51,269 nt of DNA. Source: an uncultured Spartobacteria bacterium. GTDB lineage: Bacteria; Verrucomicrobiota; Verrucomicrobiia; Chthoniobacterales; Chthoniobacteraceae. Of this stretch, positions 277-47,565 are shown in pieces. The stretch covers positions 1 to 51,269 of the forward strand of contig CAIXGS010000044.1 in the NCBI GenBank assembly GCA_903919125.1. The letters run 5' to 3'. Numbering within the stretch: the stretch's first letter is position 1; the number at the start of each line of letters is the position of its first letter. The notes beneath the pieces were generated by a model. That model was not told the origin of the DNA. It worked only from the letters and a program-made list of their open reading frames with translations, and did not search any database. The position numbers and the translations under genes were made by a program.

Positions 277-1563
277 CTACCAGCGAGTGGCTTTGAAGGT
301 CCATTCGGGAACCTTCTTTCGCATCTCGACTTGGTCATCGCGTTCCGCCAAACCGCAACGCAAATAAGACTCGTGGGCGCGCGCCAAAGCGGGACGGTCC
401 AACTCGACCCCGAGTCCGGGGCCTTTGGGGAGTGAGACGCATCCGTCCTCGATAGGAAGCCGTCCACCGATAATAATTTCCTCCCACTGCCAAGGATAAT
501 GAGTATCGAGGGCGTAGCTTAAATTGGGCATAGCGGCGCCGAGATGGGTCATGGCGGCCATGGAAATTCCGGCGTGATTGTTGGAGTGCATCGAGATCCC
601 CCGAGCAAAGCTCCGGCAAAATGCGGCCAACTCCATCGAGGAGTGGAGCCCGCCCCAATAGTGATGGTCCGTTAAAATGATGTCTTCAGAATGGGAAAGA
701 ACGCTTCCCGGAAGGTCCGCAAAGGATGTCGTGCACATGTTGGTGGCGAAGGGCAGCTTCACGGAGCGGCGCACTTCAGCCATTGCCTGCTGTCCTCGCA
801 CTGGGTCCTCGAAGTATTCAAGAACGTCTTCTAATTCCTTACCGTAGCGGATAGCAGTTTCCACCGTCCATAAGGCATTGGGATCGTATCGAATGGGGAC
901 TTCGGGACCGAAGGCAGAGCGCAAAGCACGCAAGGATTGGACCTCTATCTCGGGTTCAAAAACACCGCCCTTCAGTTTGAGGGAACGAAAGCCAAACTCC
1001 GCCACCATAGCGCGCGCTTGGTCGACGATTCCATCGGCATCCAGAGCAGGACGTTGGCGGGCGGCGTCCCAGCCCTTGGCATTGGGATCCGTGCCGAACT
1101 CCAAAACGCCACCGGCACCCTCATATTTATAGAAGAGATAGGCGGAATACGGCACCTTTTCGCGGACGACACCGCCCAACAGCGTCGCGACTGGGACGCC
1201 GAACGCTTTTCCCGCAATATCCAGACAGGCAACGTCCAAGGCACTGAAAACCTGCACGACTTTACGTTGATCCCAAGGAGCGTCTCCCCTTGCAGCAGAG
1301 GACTCGGGTTGAAAATAGGTTTCCAACCGAGCCTTGAGTGCGTGCCAATTCAAGGGATCAGCCCCTAAAACGACGGAGCGGGCCTCATTGAGCAGGGCAT
1401 CGACGGATAGGCTACCTGGCACCTCAGCCAACCCGGAAATGCCATCCTCAGTCACGAGTTCTACTACGGTGCGCAGCGCGTAGGGCGCGTGCAAACCAGC
1501 TGCATTAAGGAGCGGCGGATCACCGAGGGCGATCGGCGTGACGTGCATTTTTGCGAGACGCAT
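277..1563 (-). CDS. gudD: Glucarate dehydratase family protein (enolase superfamily)
   Basis: 428 aa, close to the usual length for glucarate dehydratases, which convert D-glucarate to 5-keto-4-deoxyglucarate in the cytosol. The mandelate racemase/muconate lactonizing fold is recognisable. The K-x-K base pair is K196/K198 (SLKLKGG). Metal ligands D227 (RYDPN), E252 (YFEDP) and N275 (ATNM) follow. D299 and H326 (SMHSNNH) match the second-face Asp/His pair. The text around ISMHSNNHAGISMAAMTHLG is typical of this family. It is the last gene of a minus-strand operon, 44 bp after the aldolase, and the two upstream genes supply the next two steps of glucarate breakdown. The start ATG at 1563 gives a normal N-terminus. 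Galactarate or idarate activity cannot be separated by eye. Confidence 0.9.
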   Translation of the reverse strand: MRLAKMHVTPIALGDPPLLNAAGLHAPYALRTVVELVTEDGISGLAEVPGSLSVDALLNEARSVVLGADPLNWHALKARLETYFQPESSAARGDAPWDQRKVVQVFSALDVACLDIAGKAFGVPVATLLGGVVREKVPYSAYLFYKYEGAGGVLEFGTDPNAKGWDAARQRPALDADGIVDQARAMVAEFGFRSLKLKGGVFEPEIEVQSLRALRSAFGPEVPIRYDPNALWTVETAIRYGKELEDVLEYFEDPVRGQQAMAEVRRSVKLPFATNMCTTSFADLPGSVLSHSEDIILTDHHYWGGLHSSMELAAFCRSFARGISMHSNNHAGISMAAMTHLGAAMPNLSYALDTHYPWQWEEIIIGGRLPIEDGCVSLPKGPGLGVELDRPALARAHESYLRCGLAERDDQVEMRKKVPEWTFKATRW

Positions 1564-3244: not shown

Positions 3245-3302
3245 TTAGCGGCGATAAAAGAACAGCGCACAAAGATAAAGCGAAAAGCAACGGCGCCTCG
3301 AC

Positions 3303-3312
3303 ATTTGCAAAT
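3303..3312. promoter_or_regulatory. Perfect 10-bp palindrome in the garR/permease divergent region
   Basis: ATTTGCAAAT lies between two divergent genes of the same pathway, 60-65 bp from each start codon. Position and symmetry suit a dimeric regulator, but the site is short and AT-rich, and no regulator gene is adjacent. The call rests on position only. Confidence 0.25.
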
Positions 3313-3376
3313 TGGATTACGCTCGCTAAGGCTTCTGGGATTCGACAGCAATAACGGCGAATAGGCTTCCCCCTTT

Positions 3377-4786
3377 ATGAATCCATATCCCCTCGCCCTC
3401 ATTATTTCACCGCTTGGCGGATTGGCCATCAGCGTTCTTTTTATCGTTTTGGTGATCGGCTTCCTACGCGTGCATTCCTTCTTTGCGCTCATCTCCGCTG
3501 CGATGCTTGTGGGGTTGCTCAATGCACTAAACCAAACCGGTGAGCAGCGTTTCACCAAAGCCATCGAAATGGTGATGACGGAGTTTGGCGCAACAACGAG
3601 TAAAATCGGATTCACCATCGCGGCGGCAGCCGTCATTGGAATGTGTTTAATGGAAAGCGGCGCTGCGGAAAAAATCATCCGCCGATTCATTGCACTAATT
3701 GGAGAGGCTCATGCGGGGTTAGCACTTTTAACGTGCAGTTTCGCACTCTGCGCTCCGGTCTTTTACGATACGGTGATTATGCTCCTTCTCCCCTTGGCAA
3801 GGACGCTGAGCCTTCGCACAAAGAAGCATTATCTCTTATACGTTCTAGTGATTTGCGCCGGCGGCGCCATCTCCAACGGACTCATACCACCAGCACCAGG
3901 ACCGCTTTTTGTTTCAGAATCACTCAAAATTGATTTAGGGGTCGCGATTTTGGGCGGGATTGCCTTCGGTATTTTACCAGCGCTCGGAGCGTACGGAGTG
4001 GCGCTTTGGATGAACCGCCGCATGGTGGTTCCAGTGCGGGAATTGCCTGGATCGGCCCTCGAATCGCTGAGCGCGCTGGCGGCTCGACCTGAAAGTGAGT
4101 TGCCGAGTTTACTGGCATCGGTGAGCCCGGTTGTGGTGCCCGTGGGGCTCATTGCGAGTGGATCATTTTTGAGTCTGTTCCGTTCGCAAGTTTCACCGGA
4201 AGTGGCGCAGCTGATTACATTTTTAGGAAACAAAAATATCGCTCTCTTTATTGCTGGAATTCTCGCACTCGCACTTCTCGCTCATCAGAAACGAACCGGA
4301 TTGCGCGATGTGAGCAAGGTCTTGGGGCCACCCTTGGAAACTGCGGGAGTGATTATTCTCATTGTCTCCGCTGGTGGTGCGTACGGGGCGATGATCAAGA
4401 ATTCGGGGGTGGGCGACGCGATCAGGACGTTCGCCGGCGGCAACACTACGCACTACGTACTTCTGGCGTGGATTATTTCCGCAGCGATCCGCGTGGTGCA
4501 AGGCTCTGCCACGGTCGCGACGATCACAGCGGTGGGAATTATGCAGTCGGTAGCGGGCAGCGAGGGGTACGGAGTGCACCCGATTTACATCATGGTGGCC
4601 ATCGGGTTTGGGTCGAAATTCCTCAATTGGATGAACGACTCGGGCTTCTGGGTGGTGAACCGTTTTAGCGGGCTGACCCAAGGCGAACTTCTACGCAGTT
4701 GGTCGATTTTAATCAGCGTGGTATCCCTGCTGGGGCTCGCCGAAGTGCTTTTGGTGGCGCGGCTTTTCCCTCGTTTCCTGCTTTAA
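3377..4786 (+). CDS. GntP-family sugar-acid permease
   Basis: 469 aa with about 12 hydrophobic segments spread over the whole length. Family-like segments include ALISAAMLVGLL near the N-terminus, CAPVFYDTVIMLLLPLA in the first half, GGAISNGLIPPAPGPL in the middle, and ATITAVGIM plus GFGSKFLNWMNDSGFWVV toward the C-terminus. GntP proteins are inner-membrane proton symporters for gluconate and related aldonates or sugar acids. Its divergent placement opposite garR-garL-gudD implies uptake of glucarate/galactarate or a sugar acid feeding that pathway. The ATG at 3377 starts a clean hydrophobic N-terminus. Only 12 bp separate its stop from the convergent ispE. Confidence 0.88.
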   Translation: MNPYPLALIISPLGGLAISVLFIVLVIGFLRVHSFFALISAAMLVGLLNALNQTGEQRFTKAIEMVMTEFGATTSKIGFTIAAAAVIGMCLMESGAAEKIIRRFIALIGEAHAGLALLTCSFALCAPVFYDTVIMLLLPLARTLSLRTKKHYLLYVLVICAGGAISNGLIPPAPGPLFVSESLKIDLGVAILGGIAFGILPALGAYGVALWMNRRMVVPVRELPGSALESLSALAARPESELPSLLASVSPVVVPVGLIASGSFLSLFRSQVSPEVAQLITFLGNKNIALFIAGILALALLAHQKRTGLRDVSKVLGPPLETAGVIILIVSAGGAYGAMIKNSGVGDAIRTFAGGNTTHYVLLAWIISAAIRVVQGSATVATITAVGIMQSVAGSEGYGVHPIYIMVAIGFGSKFLNWMNDSGFWVVNRFSGLTQGELLRSWSILISVVSLLGLAEVLLVARLFPRFLL

Positions 4787-41204: not shown

Positions 41205-43625
41205 ATGAAAACTCAGCAACTGTGGTTCCAAAATAGATTCAGTCGCAAAGCAGGATTTCACTCGGATGCAGTCCATCGAAATCCATACCCTAACCTAGGC
41301 GATATAGTTGTTAGCCGGAATTTCGGCTGCATGAACTGGTTCCCGATCATGATGTTCCTTGTGCTGTCATCGCTCGCGTGGAGTGTCTCAGCCCGAGGCA
41401 GTATAGCCTTCGGCTCAATCAACAACTTCGATGCCGTTAATGACACAGGCGTGGCTTGTCATGGTTTTGAAATCGTTCTCACCGATATTCACAGCAAAGA
41501 TATCACTTACACCTATGATTGGAACCACTATGGGATTCCGGTCATCACCGAAGACAACAGCGATCCACTGCATCCAAAGGTATTTGTACGCTATCAAAGT
41601 GCCAAAAATACAGACGGCTCCTGGATCGCCTTTACAGCCATTCCGTCTGGACCGATTAGCCCAACTGATGGGCACCAGTTTACCAATCCAGCTGTAAACT
41701 TCGGAGGTGAACATTTCGGTGTCGGTTTCTACGGGGCACCCACCGCAATTCAATACAACTGGCTCATTGATAATGGATCGGGCGCATTAATTTACGGCGG
41801 CGCGGTAAATATCGCCACACCAACCTTCACCTACTTCCCACCGGTGCTCGCCGTGCCAGCTCAAGTTCAGGCTGCCATTGTTCCACCACCGCCAATCGCA
41901 CCTCCATTACTCGAATTCGGTGATGCCTCTTGGGTTAAAGAAACCAGAACCGCTTCCCACAATAATAACCGAGTCGAGCTTAAAGATCTCGTTTCTGATG
42001 ACCCCAACGATCCCAATGATCGTAACTGGAAAAACGGCGAAGCAGACGAAGTCGAAGTAGAGTGGCAACTTCTACAAACAGATTTTAACTCGGGTAATGG
42101 GGGCGCGAATGGCGAACTTGTCGGCGCCGCAGAAGGCATCCCAAACGGCGATGAAATAATCACTCGCCGCTATGATTTCTTCAAATACGTAGGCCCAATA
42201 GATCCGGAAACGGGTGAGGCGCTCGCAGACTCAGTCGCACCCGACGGAATTCATGGAGTAGGAATCATAAATATCGGTGGCATCGATGTGGATCTCTCAA
42301 CCATCGTTGTAGTGGGCGACTATATTGGAGCTCAAATGGCAGGGTTCGATTCCGCTGGTAAGATCGGCCTGATTGACCATCTACAAGATGGAGAGATCAA
42401 CGTGCCTTACGTGGAACGAACCGTTGTGATAGGCGGCACTCCGCCAATTCTCACAATTACCTCTGGGGCTATCCCTGTCGGTATGAGCTTCGATGCCACA
42501 ACTGGCGTTCTATCTGGAACACCCTCGGTAAGCGGAACATTCTCCATTACGGTACATTCAACAGATGCTAATGCCGGCGATGTAAGTAACACCTACAAGC
42601 TAGCCATTCTTGATCCTGGAGTCGTCCAGCAGCCTCACGTCACAATCACTACGGTGGCAGTGCCGGCAGAAGGCGGGTTCACCAGTGGAGGCGGAGAGGT
42701 GAGCACGGGCACTTTAGCCACAGTGGTGGCTGTTCCGAACCCAGGCTTCCGTTTTGCTAATTGGAGCGACGGAGGTACGGTGGTCAGCACAACGCCGAGT
42801 TTCCAGTTTACTGGAGATGTGAATAGGAAGCTGGAGGCTAACTTTCTCCACACGTTTATAATAACTGCTGTTGCGCAACCCAGTGCAGGAGGGACAACTA
42901 GTGGGGATGGTGTCTTTGTCGAGGGTGGGACAATCACCCTGCTTAGCGCAGCAAACCCAGGCTACAGGTTCGTGAATTGGACGGAGAACAACGTAGTCGT
43001 TCGAACTTCTCCAACTTACACCTTCATCGTTCAATCAGATCACAGTGCGGTGGCCAACTTTGAACGTATCACTTACACCATAAGTACCTCAGCTCTGCCT
43101 CCCATGGGTGGCACAGCCACTGGGGGTGGTTCAAGCAATAGCGGCGACAGCGTTACTGTAATTGCCTCACCGAATCTAGGGTACACATTCGTCAACTGGA
43201 CGGAAGGCGGCGTAATAGCCAGCAGCCTTGCAAGTTATACATTTAATGCTACAGTCAACCGCGCCCTGACGGCAAATTTCGCAACGATTCCGAGCGCTAT
43301 CACTTTGAAGGAACTGAGAGTGGACTCGCCTGTGGCAGGTGGTTGCAAAACCCGTGGAGAAATTACCCTCAGCGCAAAAGTGAAAACAGGAGACGTCGTG
43401 GTTCAATTAATTAGTTCAGCCCCATCAATCCTTCGGGTTCCGGATTCGGTAAAAATTCCGATAGGGCATAAATCTGCTACATTTCAGGCCACTTCAACCA
43501 ATGTCCAACGCGCCACCAAAGTGATTGTAACGGCCACCCTTGGCAGTTTGGAAAAGACGTTCGCCGTAAAAATCCTACCGCGCAAACAGAACAAGAACGA
43601 AAGAAACAAAGAGGATTCAAATTGA
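41205..43625 (+). CDS. Large exported protein with Ig-like and InlB B-type repeats
   Basis: 806 aa from the ATG at 41205, which has GGAG ten bases upstream. A signal peptide begins only at M43 (MNWFPIMMFLVLSSLAWSVSARG), so 41331 is an alternative start without a clear ribosome binding site. The N-terminal ~400 residues form an unknown beta-rich domain. A putative-Ig (He_PIG-type) domain follows near 402-475 (GAIPVGMSFDATTGVLSGTPSVSG). Three divergent InlB B-repeats follow at about 478-693, each with a GG-x-TSG/TGG element, NPGYRFVNWTE and an ANF end. The last ~110 residues are beta-rich and end in a Lys/Asn-rich tail. No PEP-CTERM, LPXTG or type IX sorting signal is recognised. Likely secreted or surface-attached. 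Confidence 0.8.
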   Translation: MKTQQLWFQNRFSRKAGFHSDAVHRNPYPNLGDIVVSRNFGCMNWFPIMMFLVLSSLAWSVSARGSIAFGSINNFDAVNDTGVACHGFEIVLTDIHSKDITYTYDWNHYGIPVITEDNSDPLHPKVFVRYQSAKNTDGSWIAFTAIPSGPISPTDGHQFTNPAVNFGGEHFGVGFYGAPTAIQYNWLIDNGSGALIYGGAVNIATPTFTYFPPVLAVPAQVQAAIVPPPPIAPPLLEFGDASWVKETRTASHNNNRVELKDLVSDDPNDPNDRNWKNGEADEVEVEWQLLQTDFNSGNGGANGELVGAAEGIPNGDEIITRRYDFFKYVGPIDPETGEALADSVAPDGIHGVGIINIGGIDVDLSTIVVVGDYIGAQMAGFDSAGKIGLIDHLQDGEINVPYVERTVVIGGTPPILTITSGAIPVGMSFDATTGVLSGTPSVSGTFSITVHSTDANAGDVSNTYKLAILDPGVVQQPHVTITTVAVPAEGGFTSGGGEVSTGTLATVVAVPNPGFRFANWSDGGTVVSTTPSFQFTGDVNRKLEANFLHTFIITAVAQPSAGGTTSGDGVFVEGGTITLLSAANPGYRFVNWTENNVVVRTSPTYTFIVQSDHSAVANFERITYTISTSALPPMGGTATGGGSSNSGDSVTVIASPNLGYTFVNWTEGGVIASSLASYTFNATVNRALTANFATIPSAITLKELRVDSPVAGGCKTRGEITLSAKVKTGDVVVQLISSAPSILRVPDSVKIPIGHKSATFQATSTNVQRATKVIVTATLGSLEKTFAVKILPRKQNKNERNKEDSN

Positions 43626-43670: not shown

Positions 43671-43817
43671 AGATTTGGTACGGAAACGGGATTAATAATC
43701 GGCGGTAGACATTAAGCTGCACGGGCCCGTGTCCTCGGGAATCTAGTCCCAAGCCTTAGGCCGAGTTCCGCAGTTAAAAAAGTCTTTTTCCTCATTTCAA
43801 ACGACTTACATCCAATT

Positions 43818-44108
43818 TTAGCCGTTTTTCTCCACTACATTCTGCACCGTTTTTGAGCGACTTGGCAGACGAAGCCCCAAGTGGGACAGCACTGCACGAA
43901 GGTCTTCAAAGGACGGGAAGGAGGCTAAACCCGCTGAAACTATGGGGTACCAGTGCCAAGAAAGCCGCGCCTCAAAAAGAGACAAAAACGAGTCCTTTGT
44001 CAGAGATCTCCCAATGCTTTCGATTTCAGCGTGGAGGGGAGGTTCCTGAGCGGTGTTTAAAACTGCCTTCAGACTGAACACAACAAACGGCGGTGTATTT
44101 TTTGTCAT
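43818..44108 (-). CDS. Small helical protein of unknown function
   Basis: 96 aa from the ATG at 44108; longer in-frame starts run into the next gene upstream. The protein reads MTKNTPPFVVFSLKAVLNTA, then QEPPLHAEIESIGRSL, then KDSFLSLFEARLSWHWYPIV, SAGLASFPSFEDLRAVLSHL and a basic tail RSKTVQNVVEKNG. The pattern looks genuinely protein-coding (amphipathic helices, balanced composition) but I do not recognise a family. It lies 44 bp downstream of the arm-domain-like gene on the same strand and the two probably form an operon behind the RNA element at 44487-44747. Confidence 0.5.
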   Translation of the reverse strand: MTKNTPPFVVFSLKAVLNTAQEPPLHAEIESIGRSLTKDSFLSLFEARLSWHWYPIVSAGLASFPSFEDLRAVLSHLGLRLPSRSKTVQNVVEKNG

Positions 44109-44152
44109 ACGGATGGGGTGTGAAATAATGGAGTTGGGTGGACGTGGGTGGA

Positions 44153-44440
44153 TCAGGCTGCCGCACGGTTGGACTCGGAGCCTGAAATCTGACGTGCTGC
44201 ATTTTGGAGTTCCTCGAACAACCAATCCCTCCGTCGACGAGCCACAAATACGTTGTTCGTGCGCAGCGTCCGGCGCCGACGTGCTTTGGTATGGTCTGGC
44301 AGATGCAGTGTAAAATGGACCCACCACGACCCATTATTGTTCCAAATGTGGTGGTTCAGATTTTCGTCATTAATGCGCGTGGCGACTTTGGTTTCGGTCT
44401 CCTCCTCGAATGGGAGGTTGCTGGGTAAGGTTGTTTTCAT
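44153..44440 (-). CDS. Free-standing integrase arm-type DNA-binding domain protein
   Basis: 95 aa from the ATG at 44440, the first Met after the upstream terminator. The open frame continues further upstream through the RNA element, but that part looks non-coding. The central stretch NNGSWWVHFTLHLPDHTKAR, then RRRTLRTNNVFVARRRRDWL, has the strand-strand-strand-helix rhythm of the arm-type/AP2-like N-terminal domain of tyrosine integrases; the integrase at 46423 has a comparable N-terminus (SRYYHAGFIDKNGKRRNAS). No catalytic domain follows. A role as DNA-binding accessory protein, excisionase-like factor or regulator is inferred only. It is followed by the 96-aa gene. Confidence 0.55.
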   Translation of the reverse strand: MKTTLPSNLPFEEETETKVATRINDENLNHHIWNNNGSWWVHFTLHLPDHTKARRRRTLRTNNVFVARRRRDWLFEELQNAARQISGSESNRAAA

Positions 44441-44486
44441 TGGATTGGTGGCATGGGTTTCGATGCACCAGGAAAACAACGGGACA

Positions 44487-44519
44487 TAAAAAAACCGCCG
44501 GTCCATCAGGACGGGCGGT
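44487..44519 (-). terminator. Intrinsic terminator ending the putative RNA
   Basis: On the minus strand: outer arms ACCGCC and GGCGGT with inner GTCC/GGAC closing a four-base loop, followed by seven or eight U. It lies about 47 bp before the ATG of the arm-domain gene at 44440, so it is either the end of an RNA or an attenuator in the leader of that gene. Confidence 0.8.
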
Positions 44520-44747
44520 ATTGAAGCTCCGGGAGATTTTGGCGTACCAACGGATTTTACTCCGTCGCACATCGGTCCATTTCTGAACCAAACCACCGTG
44601 GGGATCTCCGCCGGATCTCCGCCCTCGGTTGGCAGCCTGCGGTTTGACCCGCATGCATTCCTGATGCTGGTTACGACCTTAATGAGACGCATTGGTTTTG
44701 GGCAACCAAGATCTGTGTCATAGCAGGAAAGCGTCGGACAGCTTCGG
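44487..44747 (-). ncRNA. Predicted structured RNA of unknown class
   Basis: Read on the minus strand. A closing helix is formed by AGCTTC at 44740-44745 and GAAGCT at 44523-44528 (plus two G-U pairs), enclosing about 220 nt. Inside are three clean hairpins: TTGGTT/AACCAA (44692-44709), TGCGG/CCGCA (44638-44653) and ACGGA/TCCGT (44550-44565). A perfect tandem duplication of 11 bases lies at 44602-44612 and 44613-44623. The intrinsic terminator follows directly. I compared it by eye with tmRNA, RNase P RNA, 6S RNA and SRP RNA and saw no match. Structure was not computed. Confidence 0.5.
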
Positions 44748-46422: not shown

Positions 46423-47565
46423 ATGGCCTTCGTTTTCAAGCGTCCTCACTCCCGGTACTACCACGCAGGCTTCATCGACAAAAACGGAAAGAGACGCAAC
46501 GCGAGTACAGGAGTCACCAGCAGCAAACAGGCTCAGAAAATTGCCGACGCATACGAGGCAGCGGCAAACAAGCGACGCTCGGCGAAGCAAGTTCGAGATG
46601 TCATAGCGGACCTGCACAAGGAAATTACAGGGGAAGACCTCACCGCTCAGTCCTTCAAGACGTTTTCCGAGGCATGGTTGGTGACAAAGGGGCCCGAGGT
46701 CTCGGCGGCAACCCTAGTGTTTTACAAAAACGCAGTGAACAAGTTTACCCTCTTCCTTGGAGAGAAAGCCAACGAGGACATAACCACGATCACGCAAGAA
46801 GACATCACCCGGTTTCGCAACCAAGAGGCCAAAACGCTCGCATCTAAGACCGTCAACCACGATCTCAAGTGCCTGAAAATGCTCTTTAAGGCAGCTCGCA
46901 GAGACCGAGTTATCAGTGATGACCCATCGGAGTTTGTTAAGACTGCCAAAAGGACGCAGCCCACAACAAGACGACCGTTTACAACCGAAGAATTACAAAA
47001 GGTGCTAGCTGCGGCTGATGACGAGTGGCAAAGCCTTATTCGGTTTGGATTATACACTGGCCAGAGACTTGGAGATCTGGCGGCCCTCACCTGGCAGAAC
47101 GTCGATCTGGAACGCGCCGAGCTACGAATCACAACGCAAAAAACGTCAAAATCTCTGATTCTTCCCCTCCCCCCACATCTTCTAGAGCGCCTCAAAGAGG
47201 CGGTTGGAAACAAAGTGACAACGGGGCCGATTCACCCCTCCGCATACGAGTCCTGGAAGCAATCAGGAAAGACCTCAACGATTTCAAGCCAGTTCGTCAA
47301 CCTACTGGCAAAGGCCGGTCTGAGAAAAAGGAAACCTCACAGAAAATCTGCAAATGCTCCGGGACGCGGAGTTGGCAGCAGTACGGGCGGCCTGAGTTTC
47401 CATTGCCTGCGTCATACGGCTGTCAGCATGATGAAGGATGCGGGCATACCAGAGGCGGCCGTCATGGAACTGGTTGGCCACGACAGCGAACAAATGAGCG
47501 CCCATTACACGCACGTGGGGCGAGACGCCTTGAAAAAAGCTGCAGAATCGCTGCCTGTGCTGTAG
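46423..47565 (+). CDS. Tyrosine-type site-specific integrase
   Basis: 380 aa. An N-terminal arm-like domain (FKRPHSRYYHAGFIDKNGKR) and a core-binding domain (AWLVTKGPEVSAATLVFYKN) precede the catalytic domain. Catalytic residues are visible: the first Arg in LYTGQRLGDLAAL, His-x-x-Arg in HCLRHTAVSMM, His in LVGHDSEQM and the nucleophilic Tyr in SAHYTHVG. It should catalyse integration and, with a partner, excision of the island at the tmRNA 3' end. No excisionase gene is recognised in the window; the free-standing arm protein at 44153 lies outside the island boundary. Confidence 0.93.
   Translation: MAFVFKRPHSRYYHAGFIDKNGKRRNASTGVTSSKQAQKIADAYEAAANKRRSAKQVRDVIADLHKEITGEDLTAQSFKTFSEAWLVTKGPEVSAATLVFYKNAVNKFTLFLGEKANEDITTITQEDITRFRNQEAKTLASKTVNHDLKCLKMLFKAARRDRVISDDPSEFVKTAKRTQPTTRRPFTTEELQKVLAAADDEWQSLIRFGLYTGQRLGDLAALTWQNVDLERAELRITTQKTSKSLILPLPPHLLERLKEAVGNKVTTGPIHPSAYESWKQSGKTSTISSQFVNLLAKAGLRKRKPHRKSANAPGRGVGSSTGGLSFHCLRHTAVSMMKDAGIPEAAVMELVGHDSEQMSAHYTHVGRDALKKAAESLPVL

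Follow-up and report, generated by a model that had tools for sequence, protein, structure and literature searches.

We observed that the minus strand of the window (the whole stretch of DNA analysed, 51,269 nucleotides) carries an RNA that is, by its homology, nearly certain to be a SAM-I/IV riboswitch (RF01725). It is followed by a gene for a 95-aa protein that resembles the arm domain of tyrosine integrases without the catalytic part. We put the probability of the riboswitch reading at roughly 85%; in it the unit is a SAM-I/IV OFF switch, working on transcription and translation, placed ahead of a gene for a small, putatively DNA-binding protein. The features are given below in the direction of transcription, and all are on the minus strand.

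44714-44722, minus: promoter-proximal conserved box TATGACACA (TTATGACACA class), 8 nt upstream of a -35-like TTG and present upstream of most riboswitch copies
44700-44705, minus: -35-like hexamer TTGCCC of a putative promoter, at a position conserved in upstream regions
44526-44666, minus: whole aptamer of the SAM-I/IV-type riboswitch (cmsearch match of model R1; homologues above RF01725 gathering)
44663-44666, minus: 5' strand of P1, CATC, with which the antiterminator strand CATCAGGA(A) begins; the P1 pairs are nearly invariant in alignment A4
44635-44656, minus: P2 hairpin, a single helix without a kink-turn internal loop, as in SAM-I/IV; compensatory changes in 8 of 8 pairs (helix 2, A4)
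44593-44633, minus: P3 with the predicted ligand pocket, GCCAACC (44633-44627) with GGTGG (44597-44593); positions matching SAM-I contacts 44-47 and 57-58 are kept
44600-44621, minus: tandem duplication of 11 nt within the P3 loop; GGAGAT, present in both copies, complements the 3' tail and is a possible PK-2 strand
44574-44589, minus: P4 hairpin
44570-44573, minus: 3' strand of P1, GATG
44547-44568, minus: P5 hairpin; compensatory changes in 6 of 6 pairs (helix 4, A4)
44532-44537, minus: ATCTCC, possible 3' strand of PK-2 pairing with the P3 loop, by sequence complementarity
44488-44519, minus: intrinsic terminator, hairpin plus T7
44504-44511, minus: candidate antiterminator segment TCCTGATG in the terminator, complementary to the RNA 5' end CATCAGGA; the match to its own tail is 8 bp, which 0.7% of shuffled tails reach
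44465-44474, minus: second segment TTCCTGGTGC, complementary to GCATCAGGAA and otherwise in a hairpin covering the arm-gene start region (fold -14.8 kcal/mol)
44153-44440, minus: gene for the 95-aa orphan integrase-arm-like protein (homologues, purifying selection, PF20172/PF13356 matches in members)
43761-43891, minus: insertion-sequence remnant (transposase tail), outside the unit, source of the C-terminus of a spurious 96-aa ORF (43818-44108)

Class and structure of the leader RNA

A stable minus-strand RNA had been proposed in an earlier note on this DNA, and this was borne out, since 44488-44670 folded at -78.2 kcal/mol (z -3.5) and none of 200 shuffles was equally stable. The 11-base tandem duplication (CGGAGATCCGG at 44621-44611 followed by CGGAGATCCCC at 44610-44600) and the terminator (ACCGCCCG..CGGCGGTTTTTTT at 44519-44488) that it described were also present. 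Its long-range closing helix probably corresponds to the complementarity between CATCAGGA (44666-44659) and TCCTGATG (44511-44504). This complementarity is real, but it belongs to the alternative antiterminator and does not close the aptamer, whose P1 closes with GATG at 44573-44570.

Rfam at its gathering cut-off gave no match in the window, where the RNA scores below the RF01725 threshold; this miss plausibly comes from the 11-nt duplication, which lengthens the P3 loop. Homologous leaders were located through the homologues of the arm protein. Six of them (L016, L022, L015, L008, L018 and L010) were at or above the gathering cut-off of RF01725, and nine further leaders matched it below that cut-off, including both other intact copies in the window's genome. 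A covariance model (R1) was built from 24 relatives with the window copy left out, and a cmsearch with it gave a single window match, full length, at 74.9 bits (E ~1e-17). The earlier note knew of no class for the unit as a whole; the homology to RF01725 places its RNA in a known class and rules out a new one.

We further examined covariation. Compensatory changes, on which the earlier note had staked its RNA, were abundant: they occurred in 17 of 28 pairs of an alignment not fitted to the structure, a cleaner test than the 95-row alignment (A4), which was fitted to the model. In A4, 92% of the cells were paired, there were 567 both-side changes (mean of 200 in shuffled alignments), and the covariation score was 0.53 as against 0.14 when shuffled, while slid controls over the same 95 rows all fell to 32-39%. 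A coding extension of the 44153 ORF was also considered, as its frame is open up to 44776; we rejected it, as the RNA is conserved as a structure that covaries and many other loci have the upstream frame closed before or within the RNA.

When we examined the architecture, the window RNA had a short P1, an unbroken P2, a P3 with GCCAACC/GGTGG, a P4 and a P5, and no PK-1. SAM-I/IV riboswitches have a single P2, with P4 present and PK-1 absent (PMC6890682), and their P2 is without an internal loop (PMC2864571). Because P4 and a single P2 are present and PK-1 is absent, the window RNA fits SAM-I/IV rather than SAM-IV. The SAM contacts in SAM-I numbering are 6-8, 11-12, 44-47, 57-58 and 87 (PMC6890682), and at the equivalent positions in P1, J1/2 and P3 the window copy has the pocket bases AUC, GA, CAAC, UG and A. 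Position 59 differs, as a compensated pair. The GGAGAT in the P3 loop, found in both copies of the repeat, is complementary to the tail ATCTCC (44537-44532), as PK-2 would need; these strands vary together in many homologues (e.g. GGGAGCG/CGCTCCC), and the comparison of own with cross pairings was weakly positive in the mean (5.4 vs 4.6).

Promoter, switching and ligand

Most copies have the TTATGACACA word ahead of them, usually 8 nt upstream of the -35-like TTG and in some cases in reverse orientation. The pattern box-N6..9-TTG gave four matches in the window's genome, one for each of the three units and one for a fourth copy, at C80, that an insertion has disrupted. The paralogues on contigs C19 and C32 share 90% identity over the stretch that begins at the box and runs into the arm gene, whereas the sequence ahead of the box cannot be aligned; since the two match from the box on despite a dS of ~0.7, the constrained region begins there. 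A search of the window's genome with YTATGACACA gave eight matches (three for the reversed control), four of which belong to this unit, and hence no wider regulon by exact word. The box may be the operator of the arm protein. Riboswitches of G013 and G068 carry it as well, although no arm gene was seen in these two genomes, and a different protein may therefore bind it.

We then compared the two ends of the leader. CATCAGGA, which lies at the RNA 5' end and supplies the 5' strand of P1 with its first four bases, is the exact complement of TCCTGATG; GCATCAGGAA is complementary to TTCCTGGTGC (44474-44465) with one G-U. Both downstream complements recur in most terminator-bearing relatives, and across the copies the complementarity of 5' end and tail averaged 5.3 with the own tail and 1.6 with shuffled tails. 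Where the 5' end varies (CATTCCGA, CATCGCGA, CATCGGGA), the downstream complements are often altered to match. When not paired to its antisense partner, the second segment forms a fold with the arm-gene start region (-14.8 kcal/mol). Inspection of copies that have no terminator (e.g. L007, L008 and L010) showed a helix that might conceal the start codon.

As pairing of the 5' end with the tail and formation of P1 are mutually exclusive, we infer the OFF direction, and the simplest reading would be an OFF switch that acts twice, on transcription and on translation. A sigma-70-like promoter, with the conserved TTATGACACA box ahead of it, would produce the leader transcript. When SAM is plentiful, it would sit in the P1-P3 pocket and hold P1 (CATC/GATG), the 5' end would be unavailable, and the terminator would form; in transcripts that read through, the second hairpin would cover the start of the arm gene. 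When SAM is scarce, CATCAGGAA would be freed to pair with the terminator loop, giving antitermination, or alternatively with TTCCTGGTG, opening the start so that the 95-aa arm-domain protein is made. An attenuating leader, which the earlier note had given as its fallback, was the right reading of the RNA, a riboswitch leader with a terminator.

Among the genes that SAM riboswitches control, SAM synthetase is a classic example. We observed the leader directly before metK in three genomes (G031, G369 and G200), and the order leader, arm gene, metK at five loci (L040, L045, L011, L256 and L283). A further arrangement, in which leader and arm gene are followed by a MoxR-type AAA ATPase, a VWA_CoxE protein and a divergent MetK, was found on contig C19 of the window's genome and in L049, L080, L106 and G071; that of G071 was assembled from two pieces of one contig, its MoxR gene and MetK-like gene being seen in L148 and L146. 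Since the same leader class controls metK, SAM appears by far the likeliest ligand, and the window copy itself would be expected to bind it. The window locus is a lone copy beside an insertion-sequence remnant, and is without the metK or MoxR-VWA-MetK genes of the other loci.

On C19 (L150, 188-4923, minus strand), where the riboswitch-arm pair heads the MoxR-like ATPase, VWA_CoxE and MetK genes, the divergent MetK scored 171 bits to TIGR01034, as against a cut-off of 309. PADLOC returned nothing convincing as anti-phage for the arm, MoxR, VWA or MetK-like proteins. Elsewhere, an ordinary SAM-I riboswitch (L228, C54:89750-89889, minus strand; RF00162, 81 bits) precedes a threonine synthase-like gene, an unusual riboswitch target that lies at the homoserine branch point.

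The arm-domain protein, its distribution and its possible roles

The 95-aa ORF claimed at 44153-44440 is a real gene: homologues were found in 32 of 97 relatives, and the low dN/dS among the genus homologues (mostly 0.02-0.17) places it under purifying selection. The family has a nearly invariant core, N-P-x-H-H-L-W-N-N-N-G-T-W-W-x-H...TK.R.RRSL.T...AR..RD. A Pfam search with the window protein itself reached no family; among 20 members, 18 match DUF6538 (PF20172, best E 7e-6) and three match Arm-DNA-bind_3 (PF13356, 9e-4). In a tyrosine integrase (L271) the N-terminal domain is DUF6538, the weak matches of the family profile include full-length tyrosine integrases with Phage_integrase domains, aligned at their N-termini, and hhalign to the integrase L266 gave 89.5% over 31 columns. 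The earlier description of the protein as resembling an orphan integrase arm is supported, the family being homologous to the N-terminal domains of tyrosine integrases.

The predicted structure is beta-beta-beta-alpha, with three strands and a long helix (pLDDT 81). A structure search with this model (Foldseek, VIA) gave no significant match to a solved arm domain, and a PDB sequence search gave only chance-level matches, to designed WD-repeat proteins. The arm protein is predicted to bind DNA, and since the model matched no solved arm-domain structure, this prediction rests on sequence profiles. The unit most likely provides a small DNA-binding regulator that is repressed by SAM and linked to SAM synthesis. 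More specifically, and tentatively, at a little under even odds, the protein could have arisen from an integrase arm domain and regulate SAM/methionine metabolism by sequence-specific DNA binding. In the C32 copy of the window's genome (L151, near 5887), the arm gene stops early, right after the conserved domain (...SIRDTQFSSVR*), and its similarity to the orthologue ends at the same point.

A species-level genome collection gave 393 arm loci, and most of the 80 that were kept are labelled Verrucomicrobiota. Among 387 sampled genomes of the phylum, 92 had matches to the arm profile (some of the weak ones are integrases), and 74 RNA sites were found. The RNA is conserved together with the next gene, as the earlier note had proposed: 46 of the 74 sites lie directly upstream of the arm domain on the same strand, 43-237 nt before its core, and the pairing occurs in 41 of the 60 RNA-bearing genomes. 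Some of the other sites precede metK (G369, G200) and others precede other genes, including small unknown families. The arm gene is found without a SAM riboswitch in several lineages. The pairing is frequent and old, but it is not obligatory; as many arm genes lack the RNA, the role of the protein is not tied only to SAM. A search of a phage collection with one member of the arm family gave no match, and among viral contigs two were related, one of them with the RNA.

Several other arrangements were seen. The same riboswitch class precedes a family of ~210-aa proteins (MKKYRGIRYQFRPENYW...) in two genomes (L136/L152 and L143/L155), with no arm gene found, and more distant RNA copies (L273, L278, L279 and L280) precede another small family (M-I-.-.-N-V/R-P-.-.-.-R-N-W-A-.-C...). 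In L248 and L249 the arm gene lies just downstream of a ribosomal protein L28-like gene, without a SAM riboswitch. In L021/L156 (around 390-1102, minus strand) there are tandem SAM-I/IV riboswitches, the first before a small unrelated ORF and the second before the arm gene.

We also evaluated the 96-aa ORF at 43818-44108, which had been put forward as a partner gene. It has no Pfam match, and its last ~25 codons fall in a 131-bp repeat (43761-43891) that is 89% identical to C38 and 86% identical to part of C80. The C38 copy of the repeat forms the C-terminal end of a longer ORF that is transposase-like (...LSHLGLRLPSRSKTVQNVVEKNG). The C-terminus of the 96-aa ORF is the transposase tail of an insertion-sequence remnant, and the ORF was rejected as a partner in the unit. 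The fourth copy of box and riboswitch in the window's genome (L003 on C80, ~3291-3600) has its P3 loop cut by an inserted segment, after which comes the same insertion-sequence tail as beside the window copy. On the plus strand of the window, 41205-43625 encodes an 806-aa protein with putative Ig and InlB B-repeat domains.

Other readings of the unit were weighed against the same observations. The arm protein might be a partner or modulator of MetK or of a MoxR-VWA-MetK-like machine, or might act on RNA, which would be compatible with the riboswitch. The operon-like linkage to metK or a divergent MetK at ten loci speaks for such a role, as does the fact that no TTATGACACA-box regulon is evident beyond the unit's own promoter; however, the sequence homology of the protein is to integrase N-terminal domains and metK is absent next door at most loci, and we regard this role as somewhat unlikely. 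Much less probable is a drift in specificity, by which a SAM-clan aptamer would now recognise a ligand other than SAM, for example SAH or some related nucleoside, and control the arm protein in response to it. The support for SAM is the SAM-I/IV homology, a class that could include variants with an altered ligand, and the window copy has an enlarged P3 loop; yet the SAM-I contact positions are retained in P1, J1/2 and P3, and the same leader class lies ahead of metK in several relatives.

The mobile unit of the earlier note, in which RNA and arm domain would form a selfish, non-autonomous element moved by an integrase in trans, found no firm support and appears the most improbable of these readings. 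It would fit the four copies in the window's genome, the insertion that broke one of them at C80, the sharp start of paralogue similarity at the TTATGACACA box and the integrase origin of the arm domain. However, the paralogues are inherited in place within the genus: for C19-type and C32-type copies alike, its other genomes have orthologues whose upstream flanks match, and since dS between C19 and C32 is ~0.7, flanks free of constraint would in any case not be alignable between these two. In a group of Opitutae-type loci the gene lies in fixed chromosomal synteny, no integrase was recognised as a recurrent neighbour, and the integrase in the window (46423-47565) is unrelated in sequence to the arm protein. 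The unit does not resemble an active mobile element, and the sole sharp boundary seen is the box.

Significance and comparison with known systems

The RNA class is known, while its target protein family is, as far as we searched, unreported in the open literature. That search gave no paper linking an orphan arm-domain protein to a SAM riboswitch. SAM-I/IV riboswitches have been described mainly from metagenomes (PMC2864571), and they now gain a biological target and a phylum-wide distribution. The analysis also exposes a widespread small protein family that is related to an integrase domain and is tied by its leader to SAM levels, and it brings to light a riboswitch-led operon of a MoxR ATPase, a VWA protein and a MetK paralogue whose function can now be tested. 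As a tentative proposal, which we would not yet place at even chances, a domesticated integrase arm domain may serve the Verrucomicrobiota, under the control of a SAM riboswitch, as a transcription factor (or as an accessory factor of MetK) with feedback on SAM synthesis; in some lineages it may also have become part of an undescribed MoxR-VWA-(divergent MetK) system that responds to SAM.

When compared with RavA-ViaA and other MoxR-VWA pairs, the loci of C19 and its relatives are alike in that the riboswitch-arm pair heads an operon of MoxR ATPase, VWA_CoxE and divergent MetK, although the MetK-like third member is unusual and the window locus has no such genes. With the integrase N-terminal domains (DUF6538, PF20172; Arm-DNA-bind_3, PF13356), the arm protein shares the profile match, a small beta-sheet with a long helix, and the R-x-SLxT...AR..RD core. 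Unlike them, it stands alone at 65-100 aa without a catalytic part, and it has the additional nearly invariant N-P-x-H-H-L-W-N-N-N-G-T-W-W-x-H motif.

SAM-IV (PMC6890682) resembles the window RNA in P1, P3 and P5, in a P3 loop complementary to the tail and in the same pocket, but the window RNA has a P4 and a single P2 and is without PK-1. The likeness is greatest to SAM-I/IV (RF01725; Weinberg et al. 2010, PMC2864571), which shares the core sequence, the P1-P5 layout with its unbroken single P2, the possible PK-2 and the pocket bases, and which in the relatives has metK among its targets. The window copy differs from that class in its 11-nt P3-loop duplication and its score below the threshold, in a leader with two successive predicted OFF elements, a terminator and then a start-covering hairpin, and in its target, an undescribed arm-domain gene.
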